From contig CM035807.1 of assembly GCA_020466095.1 (NCBI GenBank), positions 65,343,050-65,407,049 of the forward strand: 64,000 nucleotides of DNA. The letters run 5' to 3'. The notes under the pieces are model-generated. The model had not been told where the DNA came from. It did not search any database and was given only the letters and a program-made list of their open reading frames with translations. The position numbers and the translations under genes were made by a program. Shown here piece by piece: positions 2,523-59,213 of the stretch (position 1 is its first letter; each line of letters opens with the position of its first letter). The stretch comes from Chlorops oryzae (lineage: Eukaryota; Arthropoda; Insecta; Diptera; Chloropidae).

Positions 2523-3809
2523 TTAGGTGTAGTAAAAAGAAATCCATTATTTTTCCAATAGATGGCGTTATTTATCTGCATCTCGCGTTGTATAAGTCCG
2601 ATCGTGTTCCGCTAGGGGGCATTAGAAAGATGACAGTTCCTACTAAAAAGCTTTTTTGACACTTTTTTGATTGATTGATTCAGTTTTGTTTGAGAGCTTG
2701 TCAAAGATGGACATCAGCAAAGAGAAAATTCGCTTCATTTTACAGTTTTTCTTCGATAAGGCAGAAAACGCAAGCCAGGCGGCTGAAAATGTGAATAGCG
2801 TTTATGGACATGATACTGTAACAGCCAATCATGCGCAATTTTGGTTTCGTCGATTCCGTTCCGGTAACTTCGATGTCAAGGATGCACCACGCACTGGAAG
2901 GCCAATTGTCGAAAATGTCGATAAAATCATGGAAATTATCGAGTCCGACCGTCATGTTAGCACTGTTTCGATTGCAAAAGAGCTAAAGATTGCACAAAAA
3001 ACCGTTTGGAACCATTTGAATAAGGCTGGATACACAAAGAAGCTCGATGTATGGGTGCCACACGAGTTAACGCAAAAAAACCTCACAGACCGAATTTCCA
3101 TCTGCGAATCGCTGCTGAACCGCAACAAAATCGACCCATTTCTGAAGCGGTTGGTGACTGGTGATGAAAAGTGGGTCACTTACGACAACGTCAAGCGAAA
3201 ACGGTCGTGGTCGAAACACGGTGAACCGGCGGAAACGGTGGCCAAGCCAGGATTGACGGCCAGGAAGGTTTTGCTGTGTGTTTGGTGGGATTGGCAGGGA
3301 ATTATCTACTATGAGCTGCTGCCATACGGCAAAACTCTTAACTCGGAACTCTACTGTCAACAATGGGACCGTCTGAAGGAAGCAATCGCCCATAAGCGGC
3401 CAGCTTTGGCCAATAGGAGAGGAATTGTGTTCCATCAGGACAACGCCAGGCCACACACATCGATAGTGACTCGCCAGAAGCTCCGGGAGTTTGGTTGGGA
3501 GGTTCTTCTGCATCCACCTTATAGTCCGGACCTGGCACCAAGTGATTACCATCTGTTCCTGTCCATGGCGAACAATTTTGCTGGTGAAACATTCGCTTCA
3601 AGAGAGGCTTCTGAAATTCGACTGTCTCAATTTTTTGCTAATAGGAACGAGGGCTTCTATGAGAGAGGCATAATGAAATTACCTTTAAAATGGCAACAAG
3701 TTATCGAACAAAACGGCGCATATTTGACCTAAATCGGGTCATTCTAACTATCTTAAATAAAGCCCTCAATTTAATGCAAAAATAATGGATTTCTTTTTAC
3801 TACACCTAA
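2523..3809 (+). mobile_element. Complete mariner transposon (copy A)
   Basis: A 1287-bp element bounded by perfect 32-bp terminal inverted repeats (2523-2554 and 3778-3809, outer bases TTAGGTGTAGTAAAAAGAAA). A TA duplication sits on each side (2521-2522 and 3810-3811). These are the hallmarks of Tc1/mariner insertions. The internal region carries one uninterrupted transposase frame. Size, TIR length and ORF integrity fit a complete and possibly recently active mariner. Confidence 0.95.
2707..3732 (+). CDS. Mariner transposase, DD34D, intact
   Basis: A 341-residue transposase starting at the ATG at 2707; the open frame extends slightly upstream but without another ATG. The N-terminal third carries the paired helix-turn-helix DNA-binding region and ends near WVPHELT, the mariner linker motif. 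The catalytic domain shows all three acidic residues: D in VTGDEKW, D in FHQDNARPH and D in YSPDLAPSDYH. There are 34 residues between the second and third, giving the DD34D signature. Length matches the family's usual 340-350 residues, with no internal stop. Wording resembles the cecropia/rosa-type mariners often annotated as SETMAR-like in insects, but the subfamily is an inference. The enzyme would cut and paste the element at TA sites in the nucleus. Confidence 0.93.
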   Translation: MDISKEKIRFILQFFFDKAENASQAAENVNSVYGHDTVTANHAQFWFRRFRSGNFDVKDAPRTGRPIVENVDKIMEIIESDRHVSTVSIAKELKIAQKTVWNHLNKAGYTKKLDVWVPHELTQKNLTDRISICESLLNRNKIDPFLKRLVTGDEKWVTYDNVKRKRSWSKHGEPAETVAKPGLTARKVLLCVWWDWQGIIYYELLPYGKTLNSELYCQQWDRLKEAIAHKRPALANRRGIVFHQDNARPHTSIVTRQKLREFGWEVLLHPPYSPDLAPSDYHLFLSMANNFAGETFASREASEIRLSQFFANRNEGFYERGIMKLPLKWQQVIEQNGAYLT

Positions 3810-3811
3810 TA

Positions 3812-4617
3812 CATACAAACTTTTCACATATCTAGCATTCAATATATACATACATATTCCATTAAGGTGGCCTTTTTGGCACAAGTGTTTTTATTCTTTC
3901 TCCTTGTGATTTAAAATCTTGGTATCTATTAAAAACTTACTCGTGCAAAATTTTGTGGCGATTGGGTAATGTTTAGAGTGCGCTCATGGCCCCCGAAGTT
4001 GAGATAAATGTTGTTTTCATAACTTAAAATTTCCATAACTTGAGAAGTGTTGCTGGTAGCTATAGAAAATGTTCCGTGGCCCTTCGTATTTTTTAAAACT
4101 GCATTTTTCGTTCTCATGTCTCAAAGCTCTACCTCAACACATACAAAAATTTTCCTAATACAACCCGGTTTTTAAACGAAAATCGGTTTTTGCATTTTGC
4201 GGGTTAATCTGACCTCTGACAGAAATAATATCTATGACCAGCCCCCCTTAATTTTGTTTCAGCTAACTTTTTTTCTTTGGCTATGAAGCTTTATCTCAAC
4301 AATTTAAGGGACTTACCATAGAAAAATGTAGAAAATTGCGATTTTTGCCCTCCATGGGTGCAATAACAACCCGAGAAAGTTAACAATGAGTGGAAACCTC
4401 TTTTTATGAATAAAGTATCATTTCTCATCATTCAATATGCTGATATATCCTTCATGTTCAAACTAGCTGTCATACAAAATTTCCCATGTTAAAGGTAGCT
4501 GGAATTCGATGAAGGCTACATTGCTCAAAGTTGCCCTTCTGGGAGATGGTTAAATACGTAATAATATATATAATTGCATCAAAAAACATGTCATTATCAT
4601 TAGCGTTTTTAAATGAG
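3812..4617. other. Non-coding stretch with no supported gene
   Basis: AT-rich sequence between the mariner and a DINE-like fragment. I see no ORF with family resemblance, no tRNA-like structure and no clear repeat ends. Confidence 0.4.
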
Positions 4618-5232
4618 TAAGTAATGAGTAAGAACAAGTTCGAGAATGGACCCGATCGGACCATTTTTAGGGGTACCTCCAGTACTAGGGTCTGTTACGA
4701 AAATCACAAAAACTGCTCTAAAATCGAAGTTTTTCATGATATTTTGATGAAATTTGATATTTGAACATGTTCAAAAGCAAGTAATACGGTTTCAAAAAAT
4801 TGGAAAAGTGGGCGCGGCATAAGGGCGTTTTTCAAAAATAGTCTCCTACTCCCGAAATGCCAATGGGACTTGAACAAAAATTGGCACGTATACTTCCTTG
4901 ATAGCCAGTAACGTCCTTCCAAAAAATTTTTTCGATCGGACCATTATTAAGGGTACCTCTAGTACTAGGGTCTGTCACAAAAATTCCAAAAATGCCTCAA
5001 AATCCGACTTTATTGAAATACTTAGAATTTGACCGTATATATAAGGGTCCGATTAGAATTCCAAAAAATTTGAAAAGTGGGCGTGGCAAAAGGGCGGTTT
5101 TCATTTAGAAATTTAACAAAAGTCGGTATATGGGGCTCCTTATGGCCTTAAACACCTCTTGATATTAAAAATCATGTGTCTGTGTCGGGTATTCTATTTT
5201 CAGGCTCGCCTGACTATAACACCCTTACTTGT
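4618..5232 (+). mobile_element. DINE-1/Helentron-like element, 5'-truncated (copy C)
   Basis: The 3' end is a hairpin made of GTCAGGC and GCCTGAC arms (wobbled here as TTCAGGC) at about 5200-5220, followed by TATAACACCCTTACTTGTT. The same end is seen in the copies at 6326 and 17050. Internally, two diverged units share GGTACCTC-AGTACTAGGGTCTGT and a GTGGGCGTGGC motif. The microsatellite and 5' end present in the 6326-7226 copy are missing. No protein is encoded. Confidence 0.7.
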
Positions 5233-8763: not shown

Positions 8764-10053
8764 ACAGGTTGGCTGATAAGTCCCCGGTCTGACACATAGT
8801 TGGCGTCGCTAGTATTAAATGCATATTATTTTTATATAGTGGCAACCTTCAAATGATTCGTGTCAAAATTTGACGTCTGTAAGTCAATTAGTTTGTAAGA
8901 TAGAGCGTCTTTTGTGAAGCAACTTTTGTTATTGTGAAAAAAATGGAAAAAAAGGAATTTCGTGTTTTGATAAAATACTGTTTTCTGAAGGGAAAAAATA
9001 CAGTGGAAGCAAAAACTTGGCTTGATAATGCGTTTCCGGACTCTGCCCCAGGAAAATCAACAATAATTGATTGGTATGCAAAATTCAAGCGTGGTGAAAT
9101 GAGCACGGAGGACGGTGAACGCAGTGGACGCCCGAAAGGGGTGGTTACCGACGAAAACATCAAAAAAATTCACAAAATGATTTTGAATGACCGTAAAATG
9201 AAGTTGATCGAGATAGCAGAGGCCTTAAAGATATCAAAGGAACGTGTTGGTCATATCATTCATTAATATTTGGATATGAAAAAGCTCTGTGCAAAATGGG
9301 TGCCGCGCGAGCTCAGATTTGACCAAAAACAACAACGTGTTGATGATTCTGAGCGGTGTTTGCAGCTGTTAACTCGCAATACACCCGAGTTTTTGCGTCG
9401 ATATGTGACAATGGATGAAACATGGCTCTATCACTACACTCCTGAGTCCAATCGACAGTCGGCTGAGTGGACAGCGATCGGTGAACCGTCTCCGAAGCGT
9501 GGAAAGACTCAAAAGTCCGCTGGCAAAGTAATGGCCTCTGTTTTTTGGGATGGGCATGGAATAATTTTTATCGATTATCTTGAGAAGGGAAAAACCATCA
9601 AAACTGACTATTATATGTCGTTATTGGAGCGTTTTAAGGTCGAAATCGCTTCAAAACGGCCCCATATGAAGAAGAAAAAAGTGTTGTTCCACCAAGACAA
9701 CGCACCGTGCCACAAGTCATTGAGAACGATGGCAAAAATTCATGAATTAGGCTTCGAATTGCTTCCCCACCCACCGTATTCTCCAGATCTGGCCCCCAGC
9801 GACTTTTTCTTGTTCTCAGACCTCAAAAGGATGCTCGCAGGGAAAAAATTTGGCTGCAATGAAGAGGTGATCGCCGAAACTGAGGCCTATTTTGAGGCAA
9901 AACCGAAGGAGTACTCCCAAAATGGTATCAAAAAATTGGAAGGTCGTTATAATCGTATCGCTCTGGAAGGGAACTATGTTGAATAATAAAAACGAATTTT
10001 GACAAAAAAATGTGTTTTTCTTTGTTAGACCGGGGACTTATCAGCCAACCTGT
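8764..10053 (+). mobile_element. Himar1-like mariner (irritans subfamily)
   Basis: A 1290-bp element with perfect 27-bp terminal inverted repeats (8764-8790 and 10027-10053, starting ACAGGTTGGCTGATAAGTCC) and TA duplications at 8762-8763 and 10054-10055. The terminal sequence is that of Himar1, first described from the horn fly Haematobia irritans. The internal frame differs from a working transposase by one premature stop and an apparent missing codon near the C terminus. Confidence 0.95.
8943..9986 (+). pseudogene. Himar1-type mariner transposase, one premature stop
   Basis: The frame runs from the ATG at 8943 to the stop at 9984-9986 and would encode 347 residues, interrupted only by TAA at 9264-9266. 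The frame continues unshifted on both sides. The stop follows HIIH, where Himar1 has glutamine, so a CAA to TAA change is the simplest cause. The catalytic residues remain: D in TMDETWL, D in FHQDNAPCH and D in YSPDLAPSDFF (DD34D). The WVPREL linker motif is present. Compared with my memory of Himar1, one residue is missing in the C-terminal NR-IALEG stretch. The protein is almost certainly inactive as it stands, unless the stop is read through. Confidence 0.92.
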
Positions 10054-12099: not shown

Positions 12100-12254
12100 T
12101 GTTGGGAGTCACGCCTTAACTCCAACATTAAGGTCCCCTCCTGCTCCACCTCTGCGAACTCATAGAAGTGTTTGAATGTTGTAACACAAGCGTCAGCACA
12201 TCAACCCGGCATGATATTCGATACTCAACAATAACAACAACAAGTATCATGCCC
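12100..12254 (+). repeat. 5' LTR, portion matched by the 3' copy
   Basis: Begins TGTTGGGAGT and contains a short inverted partner (ACTCCAACA) 19 bases in. It is co-linear without gaps with 16537-16691. The full LTR likely continues to around 12745, after a TATAAATAAA-type polyadenylation signal near 12660. Confidence 0.75.
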
Positions 12255-13370
12255 AGCGACCGACGATGAGCGAGCAACGATCAACTCAGCGGAGAGACAG
12301 ACATAAAGAAAGAACAATAAAAGGTAACGACACCAGCAACGCGGAAGTGCAATTGAGCACTAATAACTGGGTCAATTGTTCAGTGGCAATATCACAGCCG
12401 AGAAACAATAATGAGAAGAAGAAAGTTGCATCACATCGAAGTACTATTGCGACAGAGCCAGGTCAGCACTTTCACAGCATAAAAGCAGAGTCTCGATCAA
12501 CGGAAAGGGAGACTGATTGTGACCGTTCCAGCAGAAGTCTCGGCTAAGCTCACGTACTATGACGAAGCCACGACGCTTAGATCTAGAATAGGGAAGTTTT
12601 AAGTAATTGTCAGGAGCTAGGATTCGCATATATTTCTGTTAGACATAAGGATTACATTTTATAAATAAAAGGATTGAACATTGTCAATCTTGTCTTTTAT
12701 TGAGCATAAGAGTCAAGCTGAGACGGAACCTTATTTGGTTTTAAACACCGGTGAAATCAGAACCGCATTAGCAAAGCTCTAAGCTCCGTGATCGAAAAAG
12801 CACACACGATTAGGGTGTTTTTAACGAAGAAAACATTATCGAGTAACGTTTTTAAGCGTACTCTGAGGGTGTTTTTTCGATAGAAGATTTTTATTTTTGA
12901 AAATTTTAAGTGTAAAAACCTTTTTTAAATCTTAATGTCAGGACAGAAATTAATGTGAAGAAATAAAAAGCAACGGTGGCAGTCCCAAAAAGCACAAACA
13001 AAGAAAAGCAGAGTAAAAAGAATTAATAAAAAAAAACAACGGTAGCAGTCCCCAAAAAATAAAGAAAAGCAGAGTAAACAAAAAGACGACTGGAAGAAGC
13101 AGAACAATGAAACTGGTGAGTGCATTTAAATATATTTTTTCACCTTGAGTCCCGTTTGATAGAATTTTTTTTTTCGCTAAAAAAAAAAAATAATTTGTTT
13201 CAGCCATATGGCTAAATAGATAGAATTATTAAAAGAAAAATTAAAATTATTTGAAAACGATTCGGACACTATTCTTAGAGAAGCAAGAGAATTAGTACGG
13301 GAAGCTAACTTAACGAAAGAAATTTCGCAATTAATAAAAGACCACACAGTGCAAGGGCTATTTTCAAAGA

Positions 13371-14447
13371 TTGGAGAAGCTACCTATCATATCAATCAAT
13401 ACAGTTAGCGCAACAGAAAACGCCACAGAAGAAAAGATTCAGTTATTAGAAGATACTATACAGGGTTTGACACGAGCATGCAAAAATTTCAAAAAACAAA
13501 TTGACGTTCAGAATAATTTAATAGAACAATCGGAAAATAATAGTCAAGAATTAAGGGCGTCATTAACCAAAGCAGTCGGGAACGAATTAGCTCAAACGGT
13601 AGAAAAGGATAAAGCGCGGTTAAAAGAAAGCGAGGAACAAGTTAAGAATTTGAAGCAGGAGGTCAAACGATTGAGAGTCTCCCTAAAAAGCGTTTGTGAC
13701 ACTGCCAATTCACCAAGCCCTAACCCAGTACGCAGAACCAAAACAATCAGCACGAACACGGACGTTCTCGTACTTCCGACAAGTCAAAATTTAATAGACG
13801 AACAAAATTCTTCCACACCCTCTAATCCAGAGTTACCAATAATTAGGATCAACATGACGCACCAACCACAAATAGATGAGGTAATGGACAAAGTTAATCG
13901 GTTGATACCTTATTTTGCAGAGAACAGCAATACAGACATGAGTGCAGAAGTTTTGAAATTTATTACTGGTTTAGAATTGGTTAAAAAAGCTTTAAGTAAT
14001 GTTGACTCCGAGACTATTCTACTTTGCATTAAACAGAGAATGGCAGGGAAAATTTTTATAAAAGCTAATCAAATTAAATTCAATAGTATTGACGAATTAG
14101 CCGATTTTATAAAAAAAGAATGTTTACCACGTCGAAATCTGGAAATTATTAGGAGGGAGTTGGCAAATTCAGAACAGAATTTAAATGAGTCAGCATCTGC
14201 ATTTGGAAGAAAGATAGAGTCCTTGCTTAGAGAGGCAGAAGAAATTATTGAAAAATCATGGAACCAAAGCGAAGCGGTATCCGCACTAAGTGAATACAGG
14301 GGTCTAGCAACAACGAGATTTATTTTAGGAATCAGAGATCCTTTCATGAGACATCGTTTAGAGTTGCATAAGCACCAACCTATTCCAGAAATAATAAAAA
14401 TAGCGGAAGAAGCAGAAAAAATTGATTCAGTCTCAGTTAAGTACTAA
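13371..14447 (+). CDS. Gag-like capsid protein of the LTR element
   Basis: An open frame of 358 codons, entered from upstream rather than from a clear ATG; the first in-frame ATG is at 13854. The N-terminal third (residues 20-105) is rich in Glu, Lys, Gln and Leu and should form a coiled coil. Residues 170-350 look like a retrotransposon capsid: helical, with features such as LKFITGLELV, RFILGIRDP and a final EIIKIAEEAEKI. There is no CCHC zinc knuckle and no protease or reverse transcriptase in frame downstream. A plausible intron (GTGAGTG near 13112 to TTTCAG near 13203) and an ATG at 13208 with stop and frame problems lie upstream, so the true N terminus is unclear. It would assemble virus-like particles in the cytoplasm. 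Confidence 0.65.
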   Translation: MEKLPIISINTVSATENATEEKIQLLEDTIQGLTRACKNFKKQIDVQNNLIEQSENNSQELRASLTKAVGNELAQTVEKDKARLKESEEQVKNLKQEVKRLRVSLKSVCDTANSPSPNPVRRTKTISTNTDVLVLPTSQNLIDEQNSSTPSNPELPIIRINMTHQPQIDEVMDKVNRLIPYFAENSNTDMSAEVLKFITGLELVKKALSNVDSETILLCIKQRMAGKIFIKANQIKFNSIDELADFIKKECLPRRNLEIIRRELANSEQNLNESASAFGRKIESLLREAEEIIEKSWNQSEAVSALSEYRGLATTRFILGIRDPFMRHRLELHKHQPIPEIIKIAEEAEKIDSVSVKY

Positions 14448-15053
14448 AAAAGTCTTTTGATACAGTGAAAGCAGTCTATAAGAGTTTTTGAAAAACAGTT
14501 GTTCTTATAAAAACAATTTTTAAATGGGATGGCGTGAACCGTAACGTAAAATCAAATACAAGCAAAAGCGAAATTTCAACTTTAAAAAAGAAAACTCTAA
14601 ACAAAATATTTGCGTACAATTTTAAAGTGCCGTAAAGAGTTCTCTAATACAGAAAATCAATCGAAAAACAAAGATTTTTATCACGTTAAGTGAGGTCTTA
14701 CTGTTTTTACACTTAATTATGACTAGGGAATTCTTTTTAACATCGCTCAAGGCTGTATAAATAAGAATGCCCTATCGAAACTTAAAAACAAAAAACCAAA
14801 TTTCTCGAAATATATTTTGAAGTCTTACAGTCACGAATATTTTCTACAATCCCCGGTAAACATTTTGATTAAACTTAAGTCTTTGAGCAGAAAATAAAAT
14901 CAAAAGAACTGAGAATGCAGCAGGGACTCAGGGTTAATAATTTATGTTTTTGATTTTCTTTCAAGACAAGTCACCAAACAAAGAAGAAGAGATATCGGAA
15001 AGCAGCTACACGAAGAAAAGCTCAAAATAAAAATAAGTAAAAGAAAAATCTGA
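14448..15053 (+). other. Interior of LTR element, no recognisable domain
   Basis: AT-rich, with stops in all frames. This is where protease and reverse transcriptase would be expected in a standard element; none is visible. Confidence 0.5.
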
Positions 15054-15434
15054 CGAAGTAAAGTAAGTAAAAATATTGTTGGACATGATTACAATAGATT
15101 GCTCAATAAAAACAAATTGAAACTAAGAAACATTGATGTGCTCATGGTAAAGCAATGCGTTTTTGCAAAATGTGAAAACAATCATTGGATGCTTGCGGTA
15201 GCACACTCTGACTTTATATATGTGTTTGACTCCCTCAAACCGCGTAGTAACCATGAAGTTATCACAAATATAAAGTTTTTTTTTTGACACAGCCAATAAC
15301 CTAAAAGAAAATGAAATTTTTTCAAAAATAAGAGAATCAATATATCCAAATTGTCCGCAACAGGAAAATCAAACAGATTGCGGGTTGTTCATTTTAAAAT
15401 TTGCACTCAGATTATTTTGCTGCATAGAGAAAAA
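15054..15434 (+). pseudogene. Ulp1-like (C48) cysteine peptidase domain, frameshifted
   Basis: The first frame (15054-15287) contains NNHWMLAVAHSDFIYVFDSL, matching the Ulp1/SENP pattern with catalytic His (HW) and Asp (FDSL). After a run of ten T at about 15275-15285 the frame shifts. The second part then reads CPQQENQTDCGLFILKFA, matching the oxyanion Gln and nucleophile Cys of the family (Q..DCG). All catalytic positions are therefore present in the right order and spacing, split by one homopolymer slip. C48 peptidases remove SUMO or related modifiers. Here the domain lies between a gag frame and the 3' LTR. An adenain-type (C5) protease is the alternative, but the DCGLF form favours C48. 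It lacks the longer N-terminal region of host Ulp1 proteins. Confidence 0.72.
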
Positions 15435-15733
15435 AATTTAATATAACCCAAACGAAAATATGTATGTTTAAACATGAACCTCTAAATTTATCAAGAGAAT
15501 TGTTGGGGGAAGTCATCAAAGATTGGCAACAACAAAACTTAAACAATATAATGGAAATAACAAAAACAGAAAATCTAATCTTATTTAAAATAATGAATTG
15601 CCTTACTAAAGAAAAAAGAAAAAAACAAAGGATCAAAATTAAAATCACACTGAATAAAAGACATTTTTGCAACAAAATCAGCGAATAAAATTGCAATCAA
15701 TTTCTGCAAAAAATATTGAAAATAACTGTTTAG

Positions 15734-15780
<47 letters not shown>

Positions 15781-16074
15781 TTATAAAACTATTTTTGATA
15801 CATAGTTTATATAAGAATATGAACATTTATAGTAATATAAGTAAATCGAACGAAAATATCTTATGGTAGGAGTAGAAACTAAGTCGATAGAAATTAAGAG
15901 AAAATAAAAATTGTTTATAAATAATTATTATAACTTTGGTAAATGTAGAGAAAGAGAATTAAAAGAGATAATGATTCAAAAAGACAATATGTATATGTTT
16001 TGAAGTTTCAAAGTTCGATTTATGTAAGAGGGATTTATGTAAAAGGGTAAAATAAATAACGAAGATTGTGCCAA
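15435..16074 (+). other. 3' interior of LTR element, no recognised gene
   Basis: Very AT-rich, with a poly-A run and (TA)n at about 15735-15770. A 74-codon frame at 15464-15688 has no similarity I can name. Confidence 0.45.
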
Positions 16075-16205
16075 AGTCAACAAGTCTCCAGCAACAACAG
16101 GCAAAAGTCTCAAAATTGCCTTTCGTCAACAAGTCTCCAGCAACAACAGCCAAAGTCTCAAAATTGCCTTTCTTCAACAACAACAGTCTCCAAATTGCCT
16201 TTCTT
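16075..16205 (+). repeat. Tandem repeat, unit about 60 bp
   Basis: Two full units and a partial one share GTCAACAAGTCTCCAGCAAC and AAAGTCTCAAAATTGCCTTT. They lie in the 3' untranslated part of the LTR element. Confidence 0.8.
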
Positions 16206-16523
16206 CTTCGCCACTACATCCGCGTGAAGATAAATACTTCGACATCAACTCACCAATGCAGATAACCGACTTCTTTAAGAAGGGGTGAGAAGGGAGCAAA
16301 CAATGACTCCCGGACTGAAACATTTTGCACCGATCAGGCTGGGTCTTCAAATCTAATTACAAGGCCAAATAAAACTTGCACGCTGACATAACCACATCGA
16401 CGAAGTTATGCTAACAACAATTTGAAGTCGAAACAGCAAAAGCCACTATATAAAGCTACTAGCACATGGCACAAACACAAGCAGTACTGAGGGTTTTTCA
16501 TCGCTAAGGTCGCAATTTTCTTC

Positions 16524-16536
16524 AAAGGGGGAGGGA
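16524..16536 (+). promoter_or_regulatory. Polypurine tract
   Basis: AAAGGGGGAGGGA directly abuts the TG that opens the 3' LTR fragment. This is the plus-strand priming site of LTR retrotransposons and fixes the start of the 3' LTR at 16537. Confidence 0.8.
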
Positions 16537-16691
16537 TGTTGGGAGTCACGCCTTGACTCCAACATTAAGGTCCCCTCCTGCTTCACCTCTGCAAACTCAT
16601 AGAAGTGTTTGAATGTTGTAACACAAGCGTCAGCACACCAACCTGGCATGATATTCGATACTCAACAATAACAACAACAAGTATCATGCCC
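16537..16691 (+). repeat. 3' LTR fragment
   Basis: 155 bp matching 12100-12254 with five transition differences and no indels. Sequence after 16691 no longer matches, so the LTR is cut short here and no target duplication can be read. Confidence 0.75.
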
Positions 16692-17049
16692 TTAACTTTT
16701 GTCTTGAATACAAATATTACTTTCTGCTTTACTCATCCGATTAATGTCCAACACTCACCAGTGTTGCTGTTTCCCTCAAAATAACCCTTTGTGTTAAAGT
16801 GTTGGTTTCACTCATGACCCGCCATATAACAGCAGCTGTTCTAACTTTAAATCGGCGAAGCAAAACTAATCAAGAGTAGTGACAGATTCCGGGACCCGCG
16901 TGAATATCGGGAACCAAGGGAATTTTGAAATTCGCGGGAATTTCGGGATCGTGTTAATCCCACATGGTTTACAACTATTCCCATCCCGCCCACGGGAATC
17001 CCGTCCCGCACCCATATCTAGTCCGGAGTCACACAAACAAAAAAAAAAG
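16692..17049. other. Flank of the LTR element, possible hAT-like end
   Basis: Includes repeated GGGAATCCCG-type stretches and ends near ACCCATATCTAGTCCGG (about 17010-17026). That is roughly the inverse of CAGAGTAGAGATGGGCGC at 11770, hinting that the LTR element lies inside an older DNA element. No gene. Confidence 0.3.
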
Positions 17050-17397
17050 TAAGGGTGTTATAATCAGGCGAGCCTGACAATAGAATACCCGACACAGACA
17101 CACGTGCTCAAATATTTTTTAATATCAAGAGGTGTTCAAGGCCATAGGGGTCCCAATACACCGACTTATGTTAAATTTCCTTATGACAACTGCCCCTTTG
17201 CCACGCTCACTTTCCCAATTTTTTGGAATTCTAATCGTAGGCTTAGATATACGCTCAAATCCTAAGTTTCATTGAAATATTTGGAAAAAGTCCGATTTGG
17301 AGGCAGTCTTGAGATTTTTGGGACAAATTATTTGAACATGTGATTCTGTGTCGGGTATTTAATTGTCAGGCTCGCCTGACTATAACACCCTAACTTT
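17050..17397. mobile_element. Palindromic DINE-like element with hairpin ends on both sides
   Basis: The left edge reads GTAAGGGTGTTATAATCAGG and the right edge is its near inverse (...CTGACTATAACACCCTAAC), each with the GTCAGGC/GCCTGAC hairpin. The inverted similarity extends about 65 bp inward. The element therefore has two 3' ends facing outward and no 5' end or microsatellite, unlike the other copies. Confidence 0.65.
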
Positions 17398-17436
17398 TTT
17401 TAAAATTTCCCTTTGACAGTAAAGGTCAAAATAAAC

Positions 17437-17490: not shown

Positions 17491-17979
17491 TAGAAAAGAA
17501 TTTGTGGAAAAATGGAGAATAAAACAAACAGGCAAGTACATTGCAAGGCAAATATTACGGGGAAAGAGAAAGTAAGTTGCCAACCAAATAAATAGAGTTG
17601 CTTTCATTGCGCCTTCCAAAACGTCACGCGCAAGCTCTTTCAAGAAAATCCTATTGAATCTTTGAGGCAACCCTTGTCGAAGACTGACGTATATAGTTTC
17701 GCGCTCCGTAAACAATAATAAATAAAAACAAAAAGTAGATATTGAGCAACCTGCATTAATTTGAGCAAAGCACAAAAGTATTCTCCAAGGAGGACTGCAG
17801 TGTTTTTGTGCCGCTCCACCAGTAAATTGTGTGTTTGAAACACAAAATAAAGATAAGTATAGTGAATATACATACGGACATTCGTATATTATTTGTTGTC
17901 GTCCAACTTCTAGGAACGACAGAAAGAGACACTCGGTCTCTGCAGCTGCTGCAGCAGCTAGCTGCTCTGCCCGAAAGTG

Positions 17980-19550
17980 ATGCCAATCGGACACAGTCCA
18001 CCATCCAATAGCTGCGACACGAACCAGTTAAAAGCTGGGCTTAATCAACATCCCGGTAGGGAAAATTTACTAATTCCCAGTAGGGAAATTACACAAAATG
18101 GTGACAATCTGGACCAGTCTACAAGTGAACAGCCAGGTATAAGCCAATTCAAAAATATTAAAATCCAGTTCGAAAGAAAGAGATCGAACTCTACGAGTGG
18201 AATAATCTCTCTAAGCGTTAAGAAAAATAGCCCTAACAACACTCCAAACAGTTTTTTACCAAATTTCCCTTTGGACGCTCTTTCTAGAGATGTAATTGAA
18301 CTTAATTCGTCCAAACAAAGTCCAATAGTTGCTGAAATGAATAAAGAGCAAAACAAGCAGCAGGCGGTGCTAATCGGTATGCACCGTAATATTAATATTA
18401 CGAAGAGGAAAAGAAGCCCTTCCGGAAAAAATGACAACAGGGCCAAACTTAATAAAATGTTAGCTCCTGCTTCTCAAGAAACACTAATTGGTAATCGGTT
18501 CGCTCCACTTGCTGCAATTTCTGATGAAAATTCAACAGAAAATCAGCCAAAAAAAGTATTTAAACTGCCCCCAATCTATTTGCGCGAGCGGAGCTCGAAT
18601 GCACTTGTTGCCAAATTAGCTAAATTATTAGGAAATAGCAACTTTTACGTAGTTCCCTTAACTAGGGGTAATATCCATGAAACTAAAATTCAAACAAACA
18701 CGGAAGACAGTTACCGAAAAGTTGTAAAAGAGTTTGAAGGAGCGAATAAAAATTTTTACACATACCAGCTGAAGAGCAGCAAAGGCATTACAGTAGTGAT
18801 CAAAGGTATTGAAGCGGATGTTGACACAAACGAAATAAAGAGTGCGCTAGAAGAGAATGGTTTTCACGCAAGATCGGTTATAAATATATTTAACAAAGCC
18901 AAAATTCCTCAGCCTATGTTTAAAGTTGATCTGTTGCCGGACAACTTAAAGCTTAAAAAAAAAACGAAATCCATCCGATATACAATTTTCAATTCCTGTT
19001 GCATCGTAAAATAACGGTAGAAGAGCCACATAAAAGAAATGGTCCCATACAATGTGCCAACTTCCAAGAATTTGGACACACAAAATCGTATTGTACATTG
19101 CGCACCGTGTGTGTAATATGTGGCGAGCTTCATCACAGCTCAGTCTGTGATAAAAAATCAAAAAATGATCGCAATTTACTTAAATGTAGTAACTGCGATG
19201 GAAATCATTCTGCAAATTTCAGAGGTTGTCTAGTTTATCAAGATCTGAAAAAACGAATCAGCATTAAAAAGGAATCAGCTCGTAATCCTACAAAAAATAT
19301 TACTGTTTCGGTACCATTCTCCTCTCACAGCCTTAATTTGAACCCCGTAACTCCAGGAGTTTCTTATGCAAATACACTAAAACCCGCGACCCCTATTAGT
19401 GCTCCTACTAACAACAACAGTAGTCTTGAGATAATGATATCTACTCTAACTCAAAGTTTGTCCCAATTTATGCAAACAATGCAAAGCTCACTCGACAGAA
19501 TTGTGCAAATTCAAACACAATTAATGACAGCAATTTTGGCTAAAATATGA
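17980..19550 (+). pseudogene. Jockey ORF1 (gag-like), one frameshift
   Basis: Starts at the ATG at 17980. The frame breaks at a run of ten A near 18955-18964, where the other copy has eight, and continues in another frame to the TGA at 19548-19550. The N-terminal half is polar and low-complexity. The region around 18640-18960 (YVVPLTRGN through RYTI) fits the RRM-like/PRE_C2HC part of Jockey-type gag proteins. The C-terminal part has zinc-knuckle motifs (CVICGELHHSSVC, CSNCDGNHSANFRGC). The first knuckle has Phe in place of its second Cys (QCANFQEFGH), as in the other copy. The protein would coat the element RNA and aid its nuclear import. Confidence 0.85.
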
Positions 19551-22233
19551 ATTTCCTAAAAATTTGTGCCTGGAATTCGAACGGGTTACCCAAGCATAAG
19601 CTAGAAATTCAGAATTTCTTTAATCAGGAAGAAGTTGACGTTATGCTTCTCTCTGAAACACATTTAACAAACAAAAATTTCTTCTCAATCCCCGGGTACA
19701 TATTTTATCAAACCAACCACCCAGACGGCAAGGCGCATGGAGGCACGGGTATACTTATTCGTAGAAGAATACAACATTTTATTCTAGATTCTTACAGTTA
19801 TGATTTCCTTCAGGCAACAACGCTTTACGTAATAGTGAGAGGTAAAAATCTGGTTTTATCGGCGATTTATTGCCCACCTCGTTTTAGCATAACCGAAAAA
19901 ATTTTCTTAGACTTCTTTAAGACATTAGGTGATAAGTTCCTAGCAGCAGGAGATTATAATGCAAAGCACATTTTCTGGGGTTCCAGAACGTGCAATCCTA
20001 AGGGTCAGCAATTATACAAGGCAATTGTCAATAAAAACAATTCTCTAGACTTTCTATCTCCAAAACAACCAACTTATTGGCCAACAGATCTCCAAAAAAT
20101 TCCAGACCTCTTAGATTTTGGAATAACTAAAGGTATTGCAAGAGAGCTTATTTCTGCAAAAGCAACAACCGACCTCTCCTCAGATCATTCCCCAGTTGTA
20201 TTCGTTTTGAACAAATATCCGGAACCAGTAGAGCGCCCACCCAGCTTAAAAGATGCAGGCACAAATTGGTTAAAATACAAAAAGCACATAAGTGCGCATA
20301 TTCATACTAACTATAAAATTGAATGCATTGATCATATTGACGATGCCGTAACTGTTTTTAACTCTAATTTGGCATCAGCAGCACAAAACTAGACTCCTCG
20401 TACTAAATATAGAACAAAACACGCCTTCTCTAATAGGGAAATTGAAAATCTCGTTGCAGAAAAACGAAGATTCAGGCGCGAATGGCAGCGGGTTCGTTCT
20501 CCGTTGGCCAAAAACAAGCTAAAACAAGTAGAAAAAAAGCTAAGAGCAAGTTTTAATAGGGAGAAAGAATGCAAAACCCGCAACTTTGTCGAGAACCTTA
20601 CGCCCAGAGGCTCAAATCGTAGTTTCTTGTGGTTGGCAAGCCGCTCTATGAAGACCCCAGTACAGAGTGGAACACCCGTTCGGTGTCTCAACAGTGGATG
20701 GGCGCGCTCAGATGAAGAGAAAGCTATGGTTTTTGCTGTGCACCTCAATAAGGTTTTCCAACCGAATCCGAGCAATGCTGAGCATGTTCTCCCAACTTTG
20801 TCCGAAAACACTCGTAGAATTTCCAACCAAATCAGTTCGGTATCATAAAAAATGAACTGGTCTGCAAAAAAGCCCCGGGACATGATCTTGTCACTCCAAA
20901 AATGTTAAAAAATATACCATTCGTAGCAGTACAGTTTTCAACAGTCTTATTTAATGCAATTATTGAATTCAGCTACTTCCCAAAATATTGGAAATGGTCG
21001 GTTATTAAAATGGGTCCTAAGCCAGGAAAAGATCCTACCCAAACATCCTCTTATAGACCAATTAGCCTCCTGCCTTGTCTCTCAAAGTTATTCGAAAAGT
21101 TACTCATAGCTAAATTAACACCTTATCTGCAAGAGCAGAACATTATCCCTACACATCAATTCGGGTTTAGAAAACAACACGGTACTATTGAACAGGTAAA
21201 TCGGATTACAAATGAAATAAGACTTGCCTATGAAAATCGGGAGTACTGCTCTGCAGTATTCCTTGATGTGCAACAAGCGTTCGATAAAGTTTGGCATGAC
21301 GGACTGTTATACAAAATCAGAAGATTACTTCCCTTTAATTTTCACGCGATCTTTGAGTCATACTTAAAACATAGAACGTATCAAGTAAGACATAACTCAT
21401 TTATTACAAAAACCTTTCAAATAAACGCGGGAGTCCCCCAAGGGAGTGTTGTTGGGCCTTTTCTTTACCTTGTATACACAGCAGATATTCCAAATAACGA
21501 TAGAATATTGATTTCAACATTTGCTGATGACACAGCGGTACTTAGTCGGCACAAGAACATAAGTATCGCAACTTCTCAGCTTCAAGATCACTTGAGCGAA
21601 ATCCAAAGCTGGTTATCTAAATGGCGTAGCAAAATTAATGAGCCTAAATGTCAACACATTAATTTCACGCTCAATAGAAAAGCTTCTCCAGACATTTTCC
21701 TTAATAATGTACGCATCCCACAATGTGAGGAAGTCACATATCTCGGTATTCATTTGGACAAAAGACTGACATGGCGTAAGCATATTGAAGCCAAGAGAAC
21801 CCAAATGAAGCTTAAAGCCAACAGCCTGCACTGGTTAATAAATAGCCGCTCTCCTCTAAAGCTTGAATATAAAATCCTTCTATACAACCAAGTTATAAAA
21901 CCAATATGGACGTATGGTTTACAATTGTATGGAAATGCCAGCTCTTCGAATATAGAAATCCTGCAAAGAGCACAGTCCAAGATCCTAAGGACTATAACAG
22001 GAGCTCCTTGGTTTGTTTCGAATGAACGGATCCATAAAGAGCTCAACGTAGAACTGGTTAAAACAGAGTTCACCAATATCAAAGAGAAATACTTCAATAA
22101 ATTGCGCAGACATGTAAATTCACTTGCCCGTGGATTATCGAACACATCGTACTCTTCGAGATTGAAAAGAAATGACCGGCCAGCAATTATAAATCGTTCT
22201 ACAACAGCAGGTGCAATCCATGCACATCCATAA
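19547..22233 (+). pseudogene. Jockey ORF2: endonuclease and reverse transcriptase, disrupted
   Basis: The start ATG overlaps the ORF1 stop. The AP-type endonuclease shows WN near the start, LLSETHL, AGDYNAKH and SDHSPVVF. A TAG at 20390-20392 stops the frame after SAAQN; the coding sense continues in the same frame to about 20848. There a 14-bp deletion relative to the other copy shifts the frame. Reverse transcriptase follows from 20902: YRPISLLP, HQFGFRK, FLDVQQAFDKVWH, NAGVPQGSVVGPFLY and the catalytic FADDTAVL, then a C-terminal region ending at 22233 inside a 74-bp tandem repeat. The enzyme would nick target DNA and prime cDNA synthesis there. Confidence 0.9.
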
Positions 22234-28673: not shown

Positions 28674-28747
28674 CTTAACAAGAAGCAATGAGTACGGTAA
28701 CAATACAATGTCTAGCAAGTATTTTAGTTTATAATGATAGATCTTAC

Positions 28748-29151
28748 ACTAGAGTCCCACCACGTAGAGCACAGACGTATTGCTGGGTAACCCATGGGAG
28801 TCTTACGGAAATTGCATTTAGAGTCCCGACGATAAATGCCAGGTGGTATCATGGTGTGACCGAATCTAAAAGCGGCGGCTTGAAAAACGTGGTCGACCCC
28901 CGGATGCACGTCTAGCTTGTAGTGCTTATAAGGTGGCAGTTTTGTACCCAAAAATGCAGGAAGGTATTCGTATAATATAATATTTTGTACACTGGCAATT
29001 ACTATATGCCGAGCTCGTTGAAATATATCTTCATCACTCCAGTCAGGGTGTGTATGCTTCACCCGCTGCGCTAACGTATTGTGCCAGCGTAAGAACAGTA
29101 TGGCAAAACTGAGAATAGCAGGGTTTTGGTTCGTGCGTGGATCACCCAGTA
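28748..29151 (-). CDS. Duox: Duox exon: central peroxidase-homology domain
   Basis: A 404-bp exon between an acceptor ending TGTAG and a GTAAGA donor. It completes the split Leu codon and reads LGDPRTNQNPAILSFAILFL, RWHNTLAQRVK, LYEYLPAFLG and FQAAAFRFGHTMIPPGIYRR, ending CSTWWDSS. The His in FRFGHTMI matches the proximal haem ligand of animal peroxidases. Where active peroxidases have Asn-Glu in the GDxRxNE motif, this has Asn-Gln. The intron to the next exon is 74 bp. Confidence 0.92.
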
Positions 29152-29214
29152 CTACAGCAAAACAAGCGAAATTAAACTCAAAGATTCTCTTCTTTAAATA
29201 TATTATATACTTAC

Positions 29215-29419
29215 AAAACAAGCGCTCGGGGCTTAGCATTTTCATCACATTTGGTATTGGGTTATTGAATAAAGGGACGCGCATTGTATTCCTAACAGGC
29301 ATTTTCCCAGTTTTGTCAGTGAGCAACGTTCCATTGTGAAACGAACGCAAAGCATTAAGCCATGCTTCTGAGGTACTGTATATGAAACTACCATCAATCC
29401 AAGCTGTCATTTGATTGAT
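29215..29419 (-). CDS. Duox: Duox exon: peroxidase-homology domain
   Basis: A 205-bp exon starting in phase 0 after TTAACAG and ending with one base of a split codon before GTAAGT. It encodes INQMTAWIDGSFIYSTSEAW, then LRSFHNGTLLTD, MRVPLFNNPIPN and MLSPERLF. The neighbouring introns are 63 and 60 bp. Sequence and small introns fit a functional gene with no lesion. Confidence 0.92.
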
Positions 29420-29479
29420 CTGTTAAAGTAGAAGTTGAGATTTTTTTGGTGTTTGTATACATATTTGCGGATAACACAC

Positions 29480-41269: not shown

Positions 41270-44200
41270 TTTTGACTAAACAAACAGCTCATGGAGAACA
41301 CTTAGATTTATTGGGAACTGTAAAAATCATCCTCATAAACGACAATGACGACACAGTGCAGTGCAATTCTGGATCGCAAGTAAATCTGATCGCAGAAAAT
41401 TTAAAATGAAAGCTCAGAATAGCCACAACACTTTCTATGCCACAATTGCAAGGCATTGGTCAAAAGGATACCGCGATTCGCCATCGCGCAGTGGTCAAGA
41501 TGCAATCTTAATTCAATGGATTTACGGCCAAAGTGAATGTTCATGTCATACCCAATATTGTCTTCAATTAACCGGCATATCGCATTGAAATAGCACATTG
41601 GAAAATTCCTAAGCACCTAACCTTAGCTGATTCGGAATTCAACAAACCAGGCCGCATCGATCGCTTTCTAGTAACCGAAATATTCTTAGATTTATTCACA
41701 AAAGGAAACATAAAACTTGGTGACGGTTTGCCCATATTACAAAACACGGTATTTGGTTGGGTGGTCGCTGGCAGTGTTGGAATTTCCAATTTATCTAATG
41801 CGGTTTGTGGGATATGCTCTACATCCGAATTAGAACATGTTTTTCAATTTTTGGAAGTAAGAAGGGTTTCGGGAAGACAACTCGACTCTGGACTCATAGG
41901 ACGACGTGCATTGTGAATCGATTTTTATTCAATATACAACCAGATCGCGAGATGGAAGATTTACTGTAAAATTACCCCTCAAGGAGCACCAGTCTGCAGT
42001 CTCTCTACAATTCGCTTATGAAATAATATAAAGCATTGGGACAAATGACCGAAGCTAAGCCGTGAGAAATAAAGCAGCGAAAGTCCTATATCCCACATCA
42101 CTACGTACTGAGGCCAGACAGTACCAGCACAAAATTAAGAGTCGTTTTTGATGCTTCAGCCCACAGAAGTGGAAGCCCATCACTTAATGACATGATGCAC
42201 ACTGGTCTTACTGTGCAGAGTGAACTGTTTTCAATCCTGCTAAGATTCAGGACATATAAATATGTACTGAAAACGGATGTCAAAAAAATGTTTAGGGTTA
42301 TATGGGTGCATCCAGATGACCGTAACTCCAACTTATACTGTGGCGTGAAAGTCCATTAGCCCAAGGGAAAGTTTATAAGCTTAATACAGTTCCTTATGGT
42401 ACCCGTGCAGCATCTTATCTACCTACTAGATGCTTAAACCAATTGGCTGATGACAACATGCACCAATTTCCAGAAGCAGCATCTGCATTTTAAACCAATT
42501 TTTACTTTAATGATGGGCTAATAGGTGCTAGTACAATCCGAGAAGCCATTAAGATTCAGCAGCAGCTGACAACCATATTTCAAAGTTCCGGAATGAAGTT
42601 GAAAAAGCGGTGTGCAAACCATTCAAAGTTTTTGCAGGACATTGCCTCAAATTTGTATTGGACTTCGACTCACAGGAAGACCAAAAACCGAAAACTTTAG
42701 GGGTAACATGGCGAGCAAAAACAGACTCTCTGGGAATAAGGGCCAGCATTTAGAAGAAACCATCAAACACCAAGATAAATGTTATCTCGGACGTCGCACG
42801 AATTTATGATCCCCTAGGATCCATAATTTTTACTGCAAAAATTTTCATTCAACAATTGTGGCAACCTAAATATGAATGGGACGCAATACTTCCAACGGCA
42901 CTTCAAAAGCAATGGGATAAACTCAGAAACGAGCTTCCCTAATTGGAGTAATTAACAATTCCAAGATACATATTAGGAGCACAAAACTGTAAACGTTTGG
43001 ACCTGCATGCCTTTGCTGATGCTTCAGAGAGAGAAAGAGAGTACGGAGCCGCAGTATACTTTTGAACGGTCCAAAAGGATCGAGCCGTCAGGATTAATCT
43101 CTTACACTCCAAATCGCATGTGGCCCCCTTACAGCTGCAAACCATTCCAAGCGTAGAGCTTTGTGCAGCTCTGCTTGCAGCTGAGCTGACTGCAAGGGTC
43201 AAAAACGATCTAAGACTTCTCATCGAACCTACATTCTATTGGAGTGACTCTCAAATTGTGCTTTCTTGGATAAATGATTATCCAGGGACTCTTACTCCAT
43301 TTGCTGCACACAGGATTATAAAAATTCGGCAGACTTCATTCGCAAATCAGTTGCGTCACCTGCCGTCAAATCAGAATCCTGCTGACATGTTGTCGAGAGG
43401 ACTTAGACCAAATGAGTAACGAAATCGCCAAATGTGGTTTTATGGTCCACTATTGTTATATTAGATGGAAGACACATGGCCTAAAAAAATATTCCCGGAT
43501 AACTTCACACCAATTCTTGTAAATTAGGCAACTAAGGCAGCTCATAAGTCAGGAGAAGCTTGTTGGGTGTACTCGATTCCATCGAGAAATTCATGCCTTC
43601 ACTTACAAAGGACAATTGCGTACGTGATCCGTTTTAAAAAACACGCAAAAATTTTGAAAGGATCCCGTTTAGAATTTCTAAGCCTGTCAACACTCGAGTT
43701 GGATGCAGTGTTAAAAGTTATCACTCGTCAGATTCAATTATTGGATTTTTCGGAAATAGTCTATTTATTGTCCAAAGACAAATTCTTCTAAAATCGCACT
43801 TCTTAAGCACGTTGACACCGTTTCTAGACGAAGAAAGTATTATACGAGTGGGTGGAAGAAAAAATTCATCCTTCCAACTATTTGATGGAAGTCACCAAAT
43901 GATTTTGCCACACAACGACCCACTAGTCACTCTTCTTATAGAAAAAATTCCCAAGGAAAACTATCATTGCGGCCCACAGGCCCTGTTAGCACACCTAAGA
44001 CAGAAGTTTTTGCCGCTGAAAGGAAAAAGCTTAGTAAGGTCAGTAGTGCAGCCTTGTGTGAGTTGTACTCGAGCAAGACCTGCTTTTTACGCACACAAAA
44101 AAGGAAACTTACCAGTGCCAGGAGTAGAGTTGGCTCGACCATTTCTAGATTCTGGTGTGGACTTTTGCGGACGCTTTTTGGTAAATTTCAAAACTCGAGG

Positions 44201-44720
44201 CAAAAGACCGCAAAAGGCAAACCTCGCAGTGTTCTGCTGCTTCGCGACGAAAACTGTTCACTTAGCACTAGTAACAGACCTTACGACGGATACATTCATT
44301 GGAGCGTTGAAACGATTTATTGTTCGCTGTGGTCATTGTCAATCACTTTATTGTGATAATGTAACAAATTTCGTTGGCGCAAGAAATCAGCTCGAGCAAT
44401 TGAATGACGTTATCTACACCAAGAAGGCCAAGGAATCAATTCAGCATAAAAGGAATCGAGTTTATTTTATTCCACCAAGATCACCACATTTTTGGGCTTG
44501 TGGGAAGCTGCTGTCAAATCAGCAAAGCATTTTTTGTTCAAGAATGTGTCACCTGCCTCACTTACGAAGAGCTCGAAGCTGTTATTGTTGAGATTGAAGC
44601 AGTGCTAAACTCACGTCCGTTAACTCCAATTCCATCTGACCCAAATGACCTCAACGCTCTCACTCTGGGCCATGCACTAATCGGGGAGCATATAAAAACT
44701 GGTGTCGATGTGCACTCGAC
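41270..44720 (+). pseudogene. BEL/Pao pol: protease, RT, RNase H, integrase, decayed
   Basis: Protease: QCNSGSQVNLIAENL (about 41361-41405), where the active-site Asp of DSGS is Asn. Reverse transcriptase: LRVVFDASAHRSGSPSLNDM, LKTDVKKMFRVIWVHPDDRN, TVPYGTRAA (42090-42420); the YxDD-type motif reads YFNDG. RNase H: PSVELCAALLAAELTAR, WSDSQIVLSWI, LPSNQNPADMLSRG (43120-43419). Integrase: HCGPQALLAHLRQKFLPLKG, CVSCTRARP, VDFCGRF, LYCDNVTNFVGARNQL, SPHFWACGKL, then a frameshift into AVLNSRPLTPIPSDPNDLNA (43812-44725). Many stops lie between domains. Confidence 0.85.
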
Positions 44721-47185: not shown

Positions 47186-49045
47186 CTAAAGAATTTTGAG
47201 TTTTGGATTACGAACTCCTTTCGTCAATATGTCAGCAATGTTCTCCTGAGTGGATACGTAAGACAGATGCACCTCACTACTATTGACTTTTTCCTGGATG
47301 AATCGGTTTTTTACTTCAACATGCTTTGTTCTAGCAGAGTAGCAGTTGTTGGTCGCGATGTGAATGGTACTTTTGTTATCGCATAGAAGTTGGCACACTG
47401 AGGTTGTGCTTAGCAGCTCACGCGTAAAACGCTTTAACCAGATGCTTTTCTGGATAGCTGCAACCATAGCCATTAACTCCGCTTCAGTGGATGACAGGGG
47501 CAATGTAGTCTGCAGCTAAGAAGCCCAAGATATTGCGCCGTTTTGTAAAATAAATACATATCCAGTGGTGGATTTACGCTCATCAATATCGGATGCCCAA
47601 TCAGCATCACAATAACCTTTAAGTTCACTACCATCTCTGAAATATGCAAGTTTTTTATTAATGGTGCCTTTAATATACCTTAATATTCGTTTTATTGCAC
47701 TCCAGTGTCCATTCTTCGGATAAGTGGAGTAGCGGATCAAAATGTTGCCAGCAAAGCAAATATCTGGACGTGTGAATTGGGCTGCATATAATAGCGACCC
47801 AATCGCTGATTGGTATTTCACTTTTGAAACACCTTCTTCATTTGAGCCTGATGACATCTTTGATTATATTGTTTGCTTAACATCGATTAAAGTGTCAACT
47901 GGATTACACTCACTCATACCGAAGCGATGTAAAATTTTGGTTAAATTCCTCGCCTGATCAATTGCAATCGTACCATCTTCTATGTTGCGAGTGATCTTCA
48001 CACCTAAGACTGATGATGCCTCTACAAGATCTTTTACACGAAAACAGGTCGATAGCTCATGTACCAGTTTCCGCTCCATTCTTTCACTGTTTGAAAACAC
48101 CAGAACGTCGTCAACATAGATCGCCACGATGAACATGATTTCCTTTTTTACATAATGATAAATACATTGATCGGTTTCGCATCTTTTCAGTCCGAAGCGT
48201 GTGAGTACGAAGTTAAACTTCTCGTTCCAGCTCCTACTTGCCTGCTTCAGTCCGTAGAGCGACTTTCGAAGCGTGCATATTCCATCAGTATTATCCTCAA
48301 AACCTTCAGGATGTTGCATGTATACAGTTTCCTTTAAATCACCATTTAAAAAAGCTGTTACGATAGCTAGTTGACGAATTTTGAAGTTGTGTTTTGCATA
48401 TAAGGCCAGAAGATATCTTATTGACGTGTACCGGGCAACTGGAGAAAATCTTTCTTGATAATCAATACCCTCCTTTTGGGTATACCCTTTTGCGACAAGG
48501 CGAGCTTTATACTTTATGACATCACCGGTTTCATTGAATTTTTTTTTTAAAACCCATTTACATTTCAATATAGAACTATTTGCTGGTTTATCCACTAATT
48601 AACATGTTCTGTTTTCAAGCAATGACGAATATTCCTCTTGCGTTGCATGAAACCAACATTTTGAATTTTCCATCGAGAGTGCTTCTTCAACCGCCGTAGG
48701 ATCCATAATTACTCGCTGCTTTCCAGATTGGCTATTCGCTCTGAATATCGAAAACCAAGATTTCAGGAACATATTCAGACACGTCTTCGAGTAATTCTCC
48801 ATCATTGGTGTCACTTCTTCGTCTTGTGTCATGACGGCCAAATTTTCTTCAATATTTTCGATTCGATCATCACGCTCCCTCCCTGAATCGACATTATCTT
48901 CGTCATTAACCAAAATTTCGGATGTTCCTGTTGATTCGTTTTGTTTCGATTCAACTTTTTTTTTTCTGTGACTTCGATGAACAATTTGATTGCCACGATA
49001 AACCATTATCGTGGTAGAATTTTTTTTCTCGACTGACTGCTTCAA
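47186..49045 (-). pseudogene. Copia pol: reverse transcriptase and RNase H
   Basis: Frames from right to left: a linker ending CWFHATQEEYSSLLENRTC (48599-49045), a stop, then RT with KCKWVLKKKFNETGDVIKYK, ARLVAKGYTQKEGIDYQERF, SPVARYTSIR, FLNGDLKETVYMQHPEGF, LYGLKQASRSWNEKF and the catalytic IYVDDVLVFSN (47864-48595). Next come YQSAIGSLLYAAQFTRPDIC and YCDADWASDIDERKSTTGY (47516-47857), and RNase H with LSSTEAELMAMVAAIQ, CDNKSTIHIA, TKHVEVKNRFIQEKV and NIADILTKG (47186-47503). Only about three stops break it, so it is a fairly young relic. IYVDD is the copia-type active site. Confidence 0.88.
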
Positions 49046-58879: not shown

Positions 58880-59213
58880 CACTTTCGGGCAGAGCAGCTA
58901 GCTGCTGCAGCAGCTGCAGAGACCGATTGTCTCTTTCTGTCGTTTCTAGAAGTTGGACGACAACAAATAATATACGGATGTCCGTTTGTATTATATATTC
59001 ACTACACTTATCTTTATTTTGTGTTTCAAACACACAATTTACTGGTGGAGCGGCACAAAAACACTGCAGTCCTCCTTGGAGAATACTTTTGAGCTTTGCT
59101 CAAATTAATGCAGGTTGCTCAATATTTACTTTTTGTTTTTATTTATTATTGTTTACGGAGCGCGAAACTATATACGTCAGTCTTCGACAAGGGTTGCCAG
59201 ATCGTATATCGTA

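Follow-up and report, generated by a model that had tools for sequence, protein, structure and literature searches.

A broken C48 peptidase gene in a polymerase-less LTR element relic of Chlorops oryzae and its polymerase-bearing Ty3/gypsy relatives

The element at 12100–16691

The element lies in a 64,000-nt stretch of the Chlorops oryzae genome (CM035807.1, positions 65,343,050–65,407,049; assembly size 442 Mb), which is called the window and provides the numbering for all coordinates given here without a locus name. A sequence-only reading of the window had described, at 12100–16691, the pieces of a long terminal repeat (LTR) pair, a polypurine tract, a gag frame and both halves of a Ulp1-like peptidase of family C48, all of which were confirmed via the LTR identity, the gag matches and the Pfam profile PF02902 (Table 1). 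By itself, the window copy is an ordinary relic, being decayed, internally deleted and broken in its C48 gene. In the genome, C48 is a recurrent, regular gene of polymerase-bearing Ty3/gypsy elements and no mark of polymerase-less ones.

Comparison of 12100–12254 with 16537–16691 revealed the LTR pair to be 97% identical over 155 nt. Since the 3′ LTR ends after these 155 nt, a target duplication is unreadable for the window copy. The window LTR begins TGTTGGGAGT, and the LTRs of groups C and D (see below) begin TGTTGTGAGT. The polypurine tract together with the LTR start shows 87–88% DNA identity with the fetched loci L054, L056 and L058. No recognisable primer site was found in the window element.

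The longer gag frame encodes 369 aa and, while giving nothing above the cut-off in Pfam, matches the gags of C48-bearing gypsy elements with best E-values of 4e-60 and 1e-130. Its amino acid identity is 55.8% over 362 residues with the group C gag of L057 and 44–46% with those of L055 and L018; leader and gag together (13000–14417) are 68% identical to L057 at the DNA level over 1460 columns. Downstream of gag, the claimed absence of a polymerase held for reverse transcriptase (RT) and RNase H, for which neither group A queries nor the comparison of window fragments with 14 loci gave any homology. It did not hold for integrase (INT), of which a short N-terminal remnant was found that scores weakly against full integrases and strongly against L018 alone. 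No env was found in the window element, and phosphatase queries gave only chance-level matches (E-values of 0.084 and 0.11). The stretch preceding the C48 relic corresponds to a sequence of L066 situated immediately 3′ of an env frame (L066 1–1296).

The catalytic motifs of C48 are retained, split over two frames. In a profile hidden Markov model search, which the sequence-only reading had proposed, the second piece passed PF02902 (E-value 5e-6; 26.9 bits versus a cut-off of 20.7) and the first by itself remained below the Pfam cut-off. The segment 15054–15284 matches the C48s of other elements with E-values down to 3e-19 (54% amino acid identity over 59 residues of L045), and the second piece is 64% identical to L045 over 53 residues.

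Table 1. Features of the window element and placements of the phosphatase domain in related loci
Feature	Position	Strand	Remark
5′ LTR	12100–12740	+	about 150–180 bp shorter, near 12700, than several relatives
Gag relic, two frames	13220–13405 and 13338–14447	+	without zinc-finger end
Polymerase-less joint	14439–14842	+	integrase N-terminal remnant (14441–14629), then non-coding
Sequence like the env–C48 spacer	14922–15088	+	74% over 183 columns to L066 1403–1585
C48 relic, piece 1	15063–15284	+	His and Asp motifs; domain start gone
C48 relic, piece 2	15286–15435	+	Gln and Cys motif; frame different from piece 1
C-terminal extension of C48 protein	15428–15685	+	third frame piece; 44.8% amino acid identity to L045, 87 residues
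Polypurine tract	16524–16536	+	adjoins 3′ LTR, as in relatives
3′ LTR	16537–16691	+	truncated, 155 nt only
Phosphatase, L016	3986–4930
Phosphatase, L062	2346–3461
Phosphatase, L017	2329–3009
Phosphatase, L063	2–1097
Phosphatase, L013	1–2100
Phosphatase, L019
Phosphatase, L065

C48 genes of polymerase-bearing relatives

The genome was searched with PF02902, the best 150 of 513 candidates were taken, and the surroundings of 20 hand-picked representatives were read. The best match, L001, resembles a host SENP/Ulp1 gene, and many of the others are repeated frames of the same length and score; the cut-off was also exceeded in L012, L018 and L045. As revealed by tblastn, a same-strand Ty3/gypsy integrase precedes C48 in 15 of the 20 representatives, being only partial in L015. 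The remaining five are L018 (remnant only), L020 (host-like, as judged by eye), L023, L024 and L027. Three more group A loci (L005/L010, L006/L009 and L002/L011) also have integrase upstream of C48.

Group A (L009 with L012) has LTRs of 948 bp that are 99.7% identical, a gag with a Retrotrans_gag domain, a pol of 1067 aa (aspartic protease, RT, RNase H, INT) and then a C48 of 322 aa, giving the order gag-pol-C48; no env was found in this group. In group B (L031 with L059 and L060), LTR stretches of 664 bp are 100% identical, and open frames for gag (563 aa), pol (1338 aa) and C48 (298 aa) are followed by an env fragment (gag-pol-C48-env). The env following C48 in L031 with L059 lies at L059:2125–3210, with a fragment in L032, and the env of groups C, D, F and G precedes C48, so that lineages differ in gene order. 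Group C (L013, L015, L016) combines aspartic protease and RT (L015), INT and phosphatase (L013, L016), env and C48, and group D (L055 with L017) contains gag, RT to INT, phosphatase, env and C48. Group F (L062 with L040) has RT and RNase H, then INT and phosphatase, and finally env and C48; group G (L064, L063, L045) has gag to INT, a phosphatase in two frames, env and C48. The C48 frames at L027:5780–6616 and L023:5776–6543 represent a further group, E, with five rows of 279-aa frames.

Many copies in these groups have broken frames. The env profile PF12259 (Baculo_F) was above the cut-off in L015, L017, L063, L059 and L066. Paired LTRs with an adjacent purine tract were found in relatives of groups A, C and D, and LTRs in group B; target duplications of 4 bp were read in L018, L015 and group A (GGTT, GTAG and ACTT, with LTR ends set by eye). 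The gene set gag-pol-phosphatase-env-C48, present in several groups, is unusual for such elements, and the lineage behind the relic is the larger find.

An aspartic protease exceeded the cut-off in groups A and C and was not observed in L028, the single pol of group B examined. Groups A and C speak against the suggestion that C48 takes over Gag processing from the aspartic protease; because they encode both enzymes, a replacement is unlikely there, and this candidate was rejected.

A second source for C48 beside a gypsy-like integrase would be a Ginger1-type or other Ulp1-bearing DNA transposon. Ginger1 transposases likewise combine a gypsy-type integrase with a Ulp1 domain, and such domains occur in Ginger1 and Mutator DNA transposons, according to the accessible part of PMC2836005. 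In contrast to these cut-and-paste elements, where Ulp1 is fused to the transposase, the present elements show LTRs, a purine tract, RT, RNase H and a separate C48 gene, and their 4-bp duplications differ from CCGG/CCGT. A DNA transposon origin is thus very improbable, and Ginger1 identity was rejected for groups A, C and D on account of their RT and LTRs.

For the window's own family, a genome search with the window C48 DNA yielded 41 match rows, comprising the window itself, 26 rows at 84–94% identity, some of them belonging to one and the same place, and 14 rows at 68–71%, which include L045. Fifteen of the close rows span most of the query; 14 of these start at position 57 of the query and the fifteenth at 74. 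No row matches before window 15105, and since none starts earlier, the window has probably lost the domain start. The window LTR gave 394 candidates, of which the best 40 comprise its own and 39 others at 86–96%, most over 12100–12701; in 12 of the 40, the last 42 nt match a further 150–180 bp downstream.

In six places besides the window, an LTR of the same family lies 1.0–1.6 kb beyond a C48 row. At L066, a 12.6-kb relative, the arrangement is LTR–9.7 kb–C48–1.3 kb–LTR, and the fetched piece has an env frame of 432 aa before C48 (Baculo_F, 3.6e-9). At L065, it is LTR–4.2 kb–C48–1.2 kb–LTR, with broken frames of RT, RNase H, INT and phosphatase preceding C48 in the piece, which was read except for about 0.8 kb next to the 5′ LTR. 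These two pieces imply that polymerase and env persist in other copies of the family to which the window C48 belongs.

Considered alone, the window would also permit C48 to have been carried into an ordinary element by a separate insertion. This case, and that of a C48 region occurring only once, had been named beforehand as arguments against a C48-bearing element. The 26 further rows dispose of the latter and, together with the recurring C48–LTR arrangement, led to rejection of a separate insertion, which we regard as next to impossible.

The C48 and phosphatase domains

Seventeen C48 rows were aligned. In a reduced set of 13, which omits the host-like L001, L025, and L024 and L032 (Cys lost), His, Trp, Gln and Cys do not vary and Asp hardly does. 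The closest solved structures to the C48 profile in PDB were SENP7 (3e-35), SENP2 (1e-29), SENP1 (3e-29) and Ulp1 (6e-21), with SENP8, which is NEDD8-specific, at 8e-6. SENP/Ulp proteases and bacterial effectors made up the listed PDB matches, among which no retroviral or adenoviral protease was found. Judged by these sequence comparisons, the C48 of working relatives is most likely a SENP-like deSUMOylase.

The element C48s share the C48 core and catalytic residues with host SENP/Ulp1 and differ in being extended by about 90 residues at the C-terminus, whereas the host-like L001 ends soon after the core. Comparison of the group A extension with a joint profile of groups B–E via hhalign gave a probability of 96.3% (E-value 1.5e-9) versus 0.2% for a reversed control; with single groups, the values were 73.6% (E), 54.5% (B), 3.4% (C), 0.8% (D) and 0.3% (G). 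These comparisons moderately favour one origin of the element C48s. Identities in C48 and integrase agree among ten elements (Mantel r 0.67, p 0.0001).

The ratio of nonsynonymous to synonymous divergence (dN/dS), likewise proposed in the sequence-only reading, was computed for C48 alone from the 34 of 49 loci used as open copies; L001 and 14 loci containing stops were set aside. With limits of dS 0.03–1.2 and more than 150 codons, 32 of 561 possible pairs qualified. In all 12 pairs with dS of at least 0.33, which are between subfamilies, dN/dS was 0.18–0.29.

Searching viral contigs with the C48 profile gave 71 pattern matches, none of which was confirmed. Among 5.8 billion proteins searched, one Ulp1-like match was obtained (P0001, 34% identity), and two further searches gave none.

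The second additional domain was matched by Pfam Y_phosphatase in L016 (6e-74), L062 (4e-72), L017 (3e-58), L063 (2e-47) and L013 (5e-37). With tblastn, it was found in 7 of 66 fetched loci, many of which do not span that part of the element. Where placed (L013, L016, L017, L062, L063, L065), it sits after INT and before env or C48, and in L016 it shares a single open frame with INT. The nearest solved chain is receptor-type phosphatase alpha (2e-85). The C-x5-R motif is kept in five of five copies, reading HCSAGVGRTG in L013, L016 and L063 and deviating in L017 and L062. The domain is of the classical protein tyrosine phosphatase type.

Origin of the window copy and a possible role for C48

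The polymerase-less joint of the window aligns with L018 4681–5072 at 311 of 411 identical columns (76%; score 329 versus a maximum of 36 in 300 shuffles) and matches no other fetched locus. In the genome, it has 312 candidates, of which the best 40 comprise the window's and 39 others at 87–94%. The comparison for co-location of joint, C48 and LTR drew on 25 of 27 C48 rows (identity at least 84%), all 40 joint rows and 40 of 53 LTR rows. Among these rows, the window alone combines joint and C48, being 1 of the best 40 joint copies and 1 of the 25 C48 rows; a 6.7-kb joint copy with both LTRs at C3:69.30 Mb has no C48 match.

L018 (C2:67304418–67312188) is a young LTR element with LTRs 99.45% identical, gag, an open C48, only the integrase remnant and no RT. 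Its identity with group D is 94% over the LTR and the greater part of gag and 96% from the tail of env onward; its intervening part (3570–5087) matches group D over only 82 bp at 72%. Sequence comparison thus indicates L018 to be a second, separate mosaic. A related polymerase-less joint is present in two elements with C48 ends from different families, from which we infer recombination of a polymerase-less subfamily with a C48-bearing relative. Another young deletion copy was observed in group C, where L015 (with L057 and L058) has LTRs 99.5% identical despite a shortened INT and no phosphatase match.

L018 bears directly on the earlier proposal of a non-autonomous LTR element with C48. C48 proved to be a real, repeated part of these elements, and L018 has gag, open C48 and both LTRs without RT. 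As a speciality of polymerase-less elements, the proposal did not survive, with integrase upstream of C48 in 15 of 20 loci and the window order unique among the compared copies. A true non-autonomous family, selected to keep gag and C48 while losing polymerase, would accord with L018 and with the 312 candidates for the joint (best 40 compared). However, the gag matches of L018 are spread over three frames, its C48 end is of group D whereas that of the window is of a different family, and the C3:69.30 Mb element has the joint and both LTRs without C48. Moreover, a short C48 copy with both LTRs (the L065 piece) retains RT, INT and phosphatase sequence. Such a family is therefore improbable.

The explanation we favour, and hold to be fairly probable mainly on the basis of the anatomy, is that the window element is a dead, internally deleted mosaic of an env-bearing Ty3/gypsy element with the following origin and C48 role. 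The closer relatives would have the order LTR-gag-pol(PR-RT-RNaseH-INT-phosphatase)-env-C48-LTR (PR, aspartic protease), as assembled from several copies and groups and not from one intact copy. The window copy would have retained gag and the C48 relic, its middle being the joint without polymerase. It probably arose via template switching between co-packaged RNAs of an abundant polymerase-less subfamily and a C48-bearing relative, and may have been copied by enzymes supplied in trans. C48 would most likely remove SUMO from host silencing proteins, for example, those of the piRNA silencing branch that runs via Su(var)2-10/SFiNX. Silencing driven by Panoramix/SFiNX needs SUMO conjugation in the fly ovary, as stated in the accessible part of PMC8733420. 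We consider an anti-silencing role, drawn by analogy, to be possible, with the chances slightly against it.

Several points weigh against this explanation. Deletion or DNA recombination could yield the same mosaic, and window 14843–14921 and 15686–16498 match no relative among the loci compared. The 17 aligned C48 rows include degenerate copies in which the Cys (L024, L032) or the Asp (L026) has been lost. Identity between group B and groups C/D is 22–28% in C48 and 63–77% in integrase, and this faster divergence of C48 could reflect either relaxed constraint or an arms race. The 12 older dN/dS pairs amount to about three independent contrasts, and the 20 younger of the 32 pairs give values of 0.17–1.09. 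The fly silencing pathway would apply to this genome by analogy only.

Alternatively, C48 may act on the element's own proteins, either maturing Gag/Pol or deSUMOylating Gag or integrase for nuclear entry or stability. Retroelement proteins can be SUMO targets, and C48 lies within the element and diverges along with integrase, as the Mantel correlation indicates. Against this stand the aspartic protease encoded besides C48 in groups A and C and the restriction of the PDB matches to SENP/Ulp proteases and bacterial effectors. We consider an action on the element's own proteins unlikely, less probable than the anti-silencing role, and roles of other kinds share the remaining probability.

Extending the mosaic and anti-silencing explanation to the whole lineage, an endogenous retrovirus lineage with gag, pol and env might have captured two signalling enzymes of host type as accessory proteins, namely, a SENP-like deSUMOylase undoing SUMO-dependent piRNA silencing and a receptor-type-like tyrosine phosphatase altering the signalling of infected cells, with the gene order shuffled between lineages and the polymerase-less mosaics being parasitic. 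This scenario is advanced tentatively and is rather doubtful. If C48 is active, some animal mobile elements bring their own deSUMOylase, and a direct test of transposons versus SUMO-dependent silencing would be at hand. With the phosphatase beside C48, these elements would offer a naturally occurring example of env-bearing LTR elements capturing accessory genes.

Env-bearing Ty3/gypsy elements (errantivirus-like) are linked with insects. The present elements resemble them in LTRs, gag, RT-RNaseH-INT, Baculo_F env, 4-bp duplications and purine tract, and differ in the additional C48 after env (before env in group B) and, in several groups, in a phosphatase joined to the integrase end. NeSL/Utopia are also retrotransposons with a Ulp1-like protease; however, according to the accessible part of PMC4640811, they are non-LTR elements in which the RT protein carries the protease as an N-terminal domain. 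The KIU/VANC Vandal elements of plants (Mutator-like) likewise retain a Ulp1 domain, and their VANC genes counter silencing, but they are DNA transposons, and the role of their Ulp1 is itself stated to be unknown in the accessible part of PMC13317346. No Ulp1/C48 gene in an LTR retrotransposon was described among the papers listed and the text read in a literature search that included few subscription papers and was confined to C48/Ulp1 and SUMO; the accessible text of PMC11952523 contains neither Ulp1 nor SUMO, and in that of PMC13226689 SUMO appears in the reference list only.

Elsewhere in the window, several features were recognised by eye, including a non-LTR element with endonuclease/RT-like frames that is present twice in opposite orientation (17962–22233 and 54615–58897), two mariner-like transposase frames (2671–3732 and 9267–9986), fragments of a Copia-like RT (47864–48598) and a BEL-like pol (43638–44591), and a peroxidase-like frame that is possibly a host gene exon (28724–29422). 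An inverted repeat at 17042–17401 has arms of 77 nt that lie 206 nt apart and are 88% complementary, with related sequence elsewhere in the window and in L023.

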